DNA of 64,000 nucleotides. It comes from Rhodohalobacter barkolensis. GTDB taxonomy: Bacteria; Bacteroidota; Rhodothermia; Balneolales; Balneolaceae. Location of the stretch: NCBI RefSeq assembly GCF_002834295.1, contig NZ_PISP01000006.1, positions 248,001-312,000 on the forward strand, read 5' to 3'. The notes under the pieces are model-generated. The model did not search any database. It was not told the DNA's origin and was given only the letters and a program-made list of their open reading frames with translations. The translations under genes and the position numbers were made by a program. Below, one piece after another: positions 56,157 through 62,357 of the stretch (position 1 is its first letter; each line of letters opens with the position of its first letter).

Positions 56157-57161
56157 CTACTCAATTTCACCTATCAGGAATAGTTCTTCATCGTATGTAG
56201 CAGCTCTCTTTTTCACCTCATCCAATGAGTCAGGAGAAACAATAGCAATGAGTCCAATTCCAAGATTAAACGTCTGTCTCATATCCTGTTCTTCTACATT
56301 TCCTGTCTTTTGAATCAATTCAAAAACTGCAGGTCTTTTCCAGCTATCCCAGTTAATATGGATTGATAAACCATCAGGAACAACTCTCTTTGTATTGCCA
56401 ATAATCCCCCCACCGGTAATGTGAGAAAAGCCATTAACTCCCTGAACAGATTTTAAATCCGTTATCAGTTTTAAATATGATTTATGAACTTGAAGCAGTT
56501 CTTCACCAATGGTTCTATTTAATTCATCCGGTTGATCATCTACACTATATTCACTGAATAGAACATTTCTGGCCAGTGAGTATCCATTGGTATGCAGGCC
56601 ACTGCTTTTAAAACCTACCAGGAGATCACCTTTCTTAATTTTTGATCCGTCAATGAGCTCCTCTTTATCGACTACACCTACAATGGTTCCGGCCAGATCA
56701 AACTCACCTTTTTTATAAATATCCGGCATTTCAGCTGTTTCACCACCTATCAGTGCTACACCATTCTCCTTACACGCTTTAGAAAAACCTTTAATTACAT
56801 CGAAACCTACATGCTGTTCCAGCTTACCGGTAGAAAAGTAGTCTAAAAAGAAAAGAGGTTTTGCACCACATACTGCAATATCGTTCACACAATGGTTCAC
56901 CAGGTCCTGTCCCACTGTATCAAATCGATTGGTTTTAAATGCTACAATTAATTTGGTTCCCACTCCGTCTACGCTGCTTACAAGTACCGGCTGTTTGTAC
57001 GATGAAAAGTCTGCATTAAACAGAGCTCCAAATCCCCCGATGTTCGTCAATACGTTTTCGTTATGTGTTTCCTGAACAACGTCTTTAATGGAGTCGACTA
57101 ACTCTTCTCCGGCTTTTATATCTACGCCTGAATCTTTGTAACTGAATGTTTTTTTACTCAC
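56157..57161 (-). CDS. purM: Phosphoribosylformylglycinamidine cyclo-ligase
   Basis: A 334-residue AIR synthase that closes the imidazole ring in purine synthesis with ATP. SSVDGVGTKLIVAFKT, GQDLVNHCVNDIAVCGAKPLFFLDYFSTGKLE, ALIGGETAEMPDIYKKGEFDLAGTIVGV and FKSSGLHTNGYSL are the signature blocks. The first residues KTFSYKDSGVDIKAGEELV are typical. It lies leftward beside the origin candidate, with no other pur gene adjacent. Confidence 0.95.
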   Translation of the reverse strand: MSKKTFSYKDSGVDIKAGEELVDSIKDVVQETHNENVLTNIGGFGALFNADFSSYKQPVLVSSVDGVGTKLIVAFKTNRFDTVGQDLVNHCVNDIAVCGAKPLFFLDYFSTGKLEQHVGFDVIKGFSKACKENGVALIGGETAEMPDIYKKGEFDLAGTIVGVVDKEELIDGSKIKKGDLLVGFKSSGLHTNGYSLARNVLFSEYSVDDQPDELNRTIGEELLQVHKSYLKLITDLKSVQGVNGFSHITGGGIIGNTKRVVPDGLSIHINWDSWKRPAVFELIQKTGNVEEQDMRQTFNLGIGLIAIVSPDSLDEVKKRAATYDEELFLIGEIE

Positions 57162-57318: not shown

Positions 57319-57678
57319 TTTTCCACACGTATATACGATAAGGATTAGATTAATATTTTGTCTTTTAGTAGTAGTGCCTGTGGATATGTTTATAACTTTT
57401 TTATCCTTTCTTTTACAGTGATGTTTGGTTTATTGTTGATAATTTTGTGGATAAATAAAGAAGTAAAATCAATTACTTAGGTTGCAATAAAAAAAGTAAT
57501 TAACATTTTATAAGGATCACACCTATCTTAACATATTAATCTATCCACATCAAAAGTTGTTCTTTTCGGATGTGTAAAATCCCGGATTTTTGTGAATTGC
57601 TGTGGATAGATATTTGAAATAATTACAAATTCATTTTGTCCACATAGTAATCTCGAATTATTAACACTCTTTTCCACA
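57319..57678. other. Candidate replication origin (cluster of DnaA boxes)
   Basis: In the 518-base gap between purM and dtd, seven 9-mers match the DnaA box TTATCCACA with no more than one mismatch: TTTTCCACA at 57319, TGTGGATAT at 57379, perfect TGTGGATAA at 57446, CTATCCACA at 57541, TGTGGATAG at 57601, TTGTCCACA at 57636 and TTTTCCACA at 57670. They occur in both orientations, separated by AT-rich DNA (57481-57540) that could unwind. No gene is supported in the gap. Confidence 0.72.
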
Positions 57679-57679
57679 T

Positions 57680-58120
57680 ATGAAAGTTGTTGTTCAGCGC
57701 GTAAACAGAGCATCAGTAACCGTCGAAAATGAAATTACAGGGAAAATTAAAAAGGGATTACTTCTCTTGGTTGGTATACACGAAACGGATACAAAGAAGG
57801 AAATCGACTGGTGCTGTAATAAAATATCTAAGCTACGGATATTTGAAGATGATGAGGGAAAAATGAACAGATCGGTCCAGGATATAAAGGGAGGAATTCT
57901 GGTTGTTTCTCAGTTTACGCTATATGGGGATACAAAAAAGGGAACCAGACCCAGTTTTATTGAAGCGGCTAAACCTGATGTTGCTGAACCACTTTATAAT
58001 TACATGGTTGAGAGATTTAAAAAGAGTACGGATCTCAATATTCAGGAAGGAAAATTCGGAGCAATGATGCAGGTTGAATTGCTAAACGACGGACCTGTAA
58101 CCATAATTGTTGAGAAATAG
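57680..58120 (+). CDS. dtd: D-aminoacyl-tRNA deacylase
   Basis: A 146-residue enzyme that removes D-amino acids from mischarged tRNA. MKVVVQRVNRASVTVENEITGKI, LLLLVGIHETD, LVVSQFTLYGDTKKGTRPSFIEAA with the SQFTLYGD motif and the C-terminal GAMMQVELLNDGPVTIIVE with the NxGPVT Thr are all present. It directly abuts the next gene (TAGATG). Its start lies two bases after the last DnaA box, so the origin candidate and the promoter overlap. Confidence 0.95.
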   Translation: MKVVVQRVNRASVTVENEITGKIKKGLLLLVGIHETDTKKEIDWCCNKISKLRIFEDDEGKMNRSVQDIKGGILVVSQFTLYGDTKKGTRPSFIEAAKPDVAEPLYNYMVERFKKSTDLNIQEGKFGAMMQVELLNDGPVTIIVEK

Positions 58121-61418: not shown

Positions 61419-62357
61419 TTACTCTTCCTGCTTGCTTTCCCATGCACGCTGAACCGTAACACGATCTTCATCTTTAGGAACAAATCCTTTCAATTCTTCA
61501 AGAGAGGTGTTTTTAATATGGTCAATCGCTTCAGTAGCATTCATATCTGTTGAAACTTGAGAAGGAGCCGTTTCTTTTTCTTCAGCTTTTTTCTCCTCTT
61601 TTGGAGCTTCTTCCTTCTTCTCTTCCGCAGGTTCTGCTTCAGCTTTTTCTTCTGTTTTTTCCTCTTCTTCAGAGTCGTCAGCTTTTACTTCCTCTTCAGC
61701 AGGTGCCTCTTCGGCTTCCTCTGCTTTAGCTTCTTCCTTCTCTTCAGATTTTTCAGCTTTAGCTTCTTTTTTCTCTTCTGCTTTTGGCTCAGCAGACTCC
61801 TCAGCGACTGCTTCCTTTTCTTCCTCTTTTACTTCATCGGCAGTTTCTTCTGCAGCTTCAGCTTTTTCTTCTTCAGCAGCTTCTTTGGCTTCGGCCTCTT
61901 CTTTAGCTTTCTTTTGCTCGAGTTCTTTGGCTGCAGCGGCAGCTTTTTCTTCCAGCTGTTTCTTATACTCTTTCTCTTCAGCTTTCAGAATTTCTTGCTG
62001 TTTAGCTTTACGGCTGCTGTCTTTATCAGCATTTTTCTCTTCACGAGCGGTTCTCCACTCTTCGAGAGCAGCTTCAATCTCTTCTTCACTTTTACCCCAT
62101 CGTATCAGGTGCATTTTGTAGAGGATACCCTCTTTTTTGAAAATGCTGCGAACAGTGTCGCTGGGTTGTGCTCCAATTTTGAGCCAATGCATTACGCGTT
62201 CTTCGTCGTAAGAGAGCTGTTTGTCTTCACTCACATTGTCGAATCGGCCAAGTCTTTCGATGATTCGGCCATCACGAGGAGAACGGCTGTCTGCTACCAC
62301 GATGTGGTAAAAAGGTCGTTTCTTTCTTCCTTTTCGTTGTAAGCGTATTTTAATCAA
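61419..62357 (-). CDS. rpsP: Ribosomal protein S16 with very long C-terminal extension
   Basis: A 312-residue S16. The first 80 residues are standard (MIKIRLQRKGRKKRPFYHIV, SPRDGRIIERLGRFD). Residues about 80-115 continue the region common in this lineage (KMHLIRWGKSEEEIEAALEEW). Then comes a low-complexity tail of about 150 residues made of Glu, Lys and Ala, and a conserved-looking end (MNATEAIDHIKNTSLEELKGF, VTVQRAWESKQEE). Most S16 proteins are 80-180 residues, so the length is unusual. It is the second gene after ffh. Confidence 0.93.
   Translation of the reverse strand: MIKIRLQRKGRKKRPFYHIVVADSRSPRDGRIIERLGRFDNVSEDKQLSYDEERVMHWLKIGAQPSDTVRSIFKKEGILYKMHLIRWGKSEEEIEAALEEWRTAREEKNADKDSSRKAKQQEILKAEEKEYKKQLEEKAAAAAKELEQKKAKEEAEAKEAAEEEKAEAAEETADEVKEEEKEAVAEESAEPKAEEKKEAKAEKSEEKEEAKAEEAEEAPAEEEVKADDSEEEEKTEEKAEAEPAEEKKEEAPKEEKKAEEKETAPSQVSTDMNATEAIDHIKNTSLEELKGFVPKDEDRVTVQRAWESKQEE

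Follow-up and report, generated by a model that had tools for sequence, protein, structure and literature searches.

A predicted DnaA-type chromosomal replication origin between purM and dtd, away from dnaA and kept in place across the Balneolales

Where does chromosome replication begin in Rhodohalobacter barkolensis, given a dense array of DnaA boxes that adjoins neither dnaA nor dnaN? Proximity to these genes is a common but non-defining trait of bacterial origins. The array lies at C6:305,319-305,678, 153 kb from dnaA on the same contig, and dnaN is found on contig C2. The window, by which we mean the whole stretch of DNA that was analysed (64 kb, C6:248001-312000), is part of a 3.6-Mb assembly of seven contigs (C1 to C7), across which the GC skew was sampled. 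The genome encodes DnaA, with a TIGR00362 score of 530 bits (cut-off 344) and the C-terminal GGRDHSTV motif. As we argue below, the purM-dtd array is very probably the chromosomal oriC, of the DnaA type and located away from dnaA, and its position has been kept across the Balneolales.

A pattern scan of positions 57319-57678 of the window found eight DnaA boxes with at most one mismatch to TTATCCACA (Table 1). The cluster described in the initial annotation is thus real, and it includes one perfect box as stated, but it comprises eight boxes rather than seven. The setting proved to be as described: no gene was found in the gap between the divergent purM and dtd, and 72% of this gap is A or T. 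The box density is likewise far above chance, with eight boxes in 360 bp compared to a background of 0.13 (average over a 1.96-Mb sample that covers each of the seven contigs of the 3.6-Mb genome). Because 5,000 simulations from the gap's own dinucleotide frequencies never yielded more than three boxes in the gap (mean 0.24), a chance origin of the cluster is excluded. Additional sites with two mismatches fall at -293, -109 and -22 from the dtd start, where relatives carry good boxes.

Table 1. Features of the predicted origin region and its flanking genes (window positions; offsets in base pairs from the dtd start)
Feature	Position	Strand	Remarks
purM	56157-57161	-	TIGR00878
Predicted oriC region, purM-dtd divergent intergenic	57162-57679		gene-free; 72% AT
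DnaA box TTTTCCACA, leftmost of the array	57319-57327	+	kept near -361 from dtd in relatives
Candidate AT-rich unwinding element, overlaps trios	57325-57374		by stability, in the lowest 1% of 50-mers in the window
DnaA-trios TAGTAGTAG, 3'-GAT-5' type	57366-57374	+	same position in 26/40 relatives
TGCC spacer, 4 nt, trios to box	57375-57378	+	4-5 nt in relatives
BUS DnaA box ATATCCACA, adjoins trios	57379-57387	-	conserved at -301
Weak tandem DnaA box TTATAAACA, 2 mismatches, same direction	57387-57395	-	conserved position -293; good box in several relatives
DnaA box TTATCAACA	57434-57442	-	scan; conserved at -246
Perfect DnaA box TTATCCACA, 12 bp from the 57434 box	57446-57454	-	conserved at -234
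AT-rich centre of the array, separating its two arms	57464-57513		lowest 50-mer stability in the region; among about the 0.3% least stable of the window
DnaA box CTATCCACA	57541-57549	+	scan; conserved at -139 in closest relatives
Conserved 13-mer AAAGTTGTTCTTT (consensus AAAGTTATTCTTT), not a DnaA box	57553-57565	+	fixed offset -127/-128
Weak DnaA box TTTTACACA, 2 mismatches	57571-57579	-	good box at -109 in relatives
DnaA box CTATCCACA	57601-57609	-	scan; conserved at -79
DnaA box TTGTCCACA	57636-57644	+	scan; offset -44
Weak DnaA box TTATTAACA, 2 mismatches	57658-57666	+	conserved -22 position; perfect in several relatives
DnaA box TTTTCCACA, ends one base before the dtd start codon	57670-57678	+	conserved at -10
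dtd	57680-58120	+	TIGR00256

The left part of the array contains a candidate unwinding module. On the plus strand, positions 57366-57387 read TAGTAGTAG-TGCC-TGTGGATAT, in which four bases separate three trios from a DnaA box. Published BUS elements are described by a rule that requires three or more NAN trios no further than 16 bp from a box, with the GAT-type trio being the commonest beside the box, and judged by its sequence the module at 57366-57387 fits this description (PMC8287927). It is the only clear trio-spacer-box arrangement in the 1.96 Mb sampled, in which four weaker, A-rich matches were also found. Easily melted AT-rich DNA, as calculated from the nearest-neighbour energies of 50-mers across the 64-kb window, adjoins the boxes in two places, one at the trios and one between the arms (Table 1). 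In 26 of 40 relatives, two or more TAG/TAA-type trios follow one another at a distance of 4-5 bases from the box; the module is degenerate or missing in the other 14, which belong mostly to one branch and to more distant loci. With the BUS of Bacillus subtilis (PMC6669920, PMC8287927), the locus shares the same-direction box pair, the short spacer and the repeated 3'-GAT-5' trios that run into an AT-rich stretch. In contrast to Bacillus subtilis, it has three trios of the clear type and a weak second box, it does not adjoin dnaA or dnaN, and it includes a conserved 13-mer.

The array is conserved upstream of dtd, at fixed offsets, in about 40 independent Balneolales loci. Among named records, those nearest by dtd come from Balneolaceae, with Rhodohalobacter among them, and the array was also detected in two loci of another Balneolales family (L218, L220). 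Box positions shared among these loci lie at about -361, -301/-293, -246/-234, -185/-139, -109, -79, -44, -22 and -10 from dtd, the right-end boxes being shifted by about 11 bp in one branch. Outside the Balneolales, none of five sampled loci carries the array upstream of dtd (L137, L158, L219 and L223 none, L150 a single box). The 13-mer shows a similarly fixed placement: 31 of 49 loci carry the exact consensus AAAGTTATTCTTT at offset -127/-128, and the copy in the window differs from it by one change. No exact copy was present in the 1.96 Mb sampled of the Rhodohalobacter barkolensis genome. All 11 relatives that were searched whole have a copy at the origin, which is the sole or nearly sole one in most of them, and one genus has a second copy after the left box pair. 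The 13-mer might help to set up the right arm, either by binding an origin protein specific to the lineage or as a DnaA site of a new, low-affinity kind, a tentative suggestion that we consider rather unlikely.

Genome-wide composition points to the same locus. The cumulative GC skew has a trough at C6:299-311 kb that includes the array, and the sampled skew has no other minimum inside a contig; the minimum, proposed in the initial annotation as a check, thus lies at the array and not far off. On this contig, negative skew gives way to positive skew at about 300-310 kb. Contigs C2, C3, C4, C5 and C7 are essentially single-signed in the sampled skew, and C1 turns from positive to negative at about 845 kb, which marks the maximum. 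An origin-like switch inside a contig is therefore found only at the C6 trough. The lowest point at single-base resolution is C6:298,954, 6.4 kb left of the array; the trough is flat and dips again near 311 kb, and skew alone therefore cannot fix the exact base. A single dif-like match, GTCGTATAATATATATTATGTAAA, lies on the skew maximum (C1:847,989-848,012; two mismatches to the dif pattern used). Two parS sites, at C6:324,082 (one mismatch) and C6:324,236 (perfect), are 154 bp apart at and inside gidB, a gene that was named by its position and sequence and had no NCBIfam match at the cut-off used. No other parS match with fewer than two mismatches was found, and the nearer of the two sites is 18.7 kb from the array.

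These parS sites bear on the question of whether the true origin could lie elsewhere on C6. The initial annotation had noted that dnaA, dnaN and gidA are not nearby, which holds within the window, but in the genome gidA (C6:322190-324079) follows 16.5 kb to the right of the array, about 10 kb past the window edge. It belongs to a gidA-gidB-parS-gyrA order located 16-23 kb right of the array, just outside the window, and the locus is thus not remote from every classical origin gene. Replication could accordingly be thought to start at gidA-gidB-parS (C6:322-325 kb), as gidA and gidB, which harbour the two parS sites, are classical neighbours of an origin, or at dnaA (C6:152 kb), which has four conserved boxes upstream, while the array would merely titrate DnaA. 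However, the surroundings of gidA contain no box cluster, and the cumulative skew has already turned upwards at 323 kb and continues its descent past 152 kb. Two complete relatives lead to the same answer. In CP051242.1 and G068, the skew sign flips at dtd (320 kb and 955 kb, respectively), and parS is found 25-28 kb from dtd in both (348.8-348.9 kb in CP051242.1, 929.8 kb in G068), CP051242.1 likewise having two near-perfect sites 154 bp apart. Its dnaA gene, at 3,618.8 kb, and the skew switch are about 449 kb apart and dtd is at the switch, which indicates that the origin tracks dtd and not dnaA. We therefore regard an origin at gidA or dnaA as very improbable. The window also contains, at 61419-62357, an open reading frame that resembles ribosomal protein S16 and has a long Glu/Lys/Ala-rich tail (312 aa in total).

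An even less probable explanation is that the array has no origin function and is either a promoter region through which DnaA controls dtd, purM or both, or a reservoir of DnaA comparable to datA. The boxes do adjoin the dtd start codon, and groups of DnaA boxes upstream of genes exist in this genome. One of them comprises five boxes at C1:1,031,948-1,032,171, 177-392 bp upstream of nrdJ, which encodes a B12-dependent class II ribonucleotide reductase; all 12 of the other Balneolaceae examined have a TTATCCACA/TTTTCCACA pair with a spacing of exactly 20 bp, located about 140-180 bp upstream of nrdJ. This cluster was rejected as an origin because it lies on an arm of negative skew where the sign does not switch, and because of its conserved pair upstream of nrdJ. 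It probably mediates DnaA control of DNA precursor supply, in parallel to the control of nrdAB by DnaA in E. coli (PMC8203912). The other group, four same-direction boxes at C6:151,562-151,821 just upstream of dnaA, is conserved in three relatives and probably serves autoregulation; it was rejected as an origin on account of the absence of a lasting skew change. Both clusters are smaller than the purM-dtd array and neither is at the skew minimum. The array is the densest in the 1.96 Mb sampled of 3.6 Mb, with at most five boxes per 400 bp elsewhere, and a better candidate cluster was thus not found there. A purely regulatory cluster would, moreover, predict neither the coincidence of skew switch, parS and trio module at the array, nor that the array remains with dtd where an extra gene separates purM, as is the case in CP051242.1 (L123), in which an additional reading frame lies between purM and the array.

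The initial reading of the purM-dtd array as oriC is hence supported by several features observed here: the boxes and their conservation, the BUS-type module with its trios and AT-rich DNA, the skew trough with its sign switch, and the placement of parS and of the dif-like site. By analogy to Bacillus subtilis and other species, firing of this origin would begin with the binding of DnaA to the boxes between purM and dtd. A DnaA filament would then start at the box pair 57379-57395, grow leftwards onto the single-stranded TAGTAGTAG trios and open the AT-rich stretch at about 57325-57374. This unwinding would allow the helicase to load, and two forks would proceed to a terminus near C1:848 kb.

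The E. coli oriC is also separate from dnaA and contains several DnaA boxes and an AT-rich unwinding region. In the locus described here, gidA is not adjacent, few GATC sites were counted, and a trio-type module replaces the E. coli layout. Origins away from dnaA are known from other bacteria, for example from Synechococcus lividus PCC 6715 in DoriC 10, where the box cluster is likewise distant from dnaA and dnaN (PMC6323995). Unlike that origin, the Balneolales array has kept its place upstream of dtd across an order, and gidA, gidB, parS and gyrA lie within 23 kb. Among the open-access papers searched, we found none that maps a Balneolales origin; DoriC may already list a prediction for a complete genome. 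A recognizable unwinding module in these bacteria allows the BUS model to be tested in a further lineage. The Balneolales origin can furthermore be used as a rotation point for genome maps and, being conserved and well delimited, as a marker for estimating growth rates from metagenome coverage.
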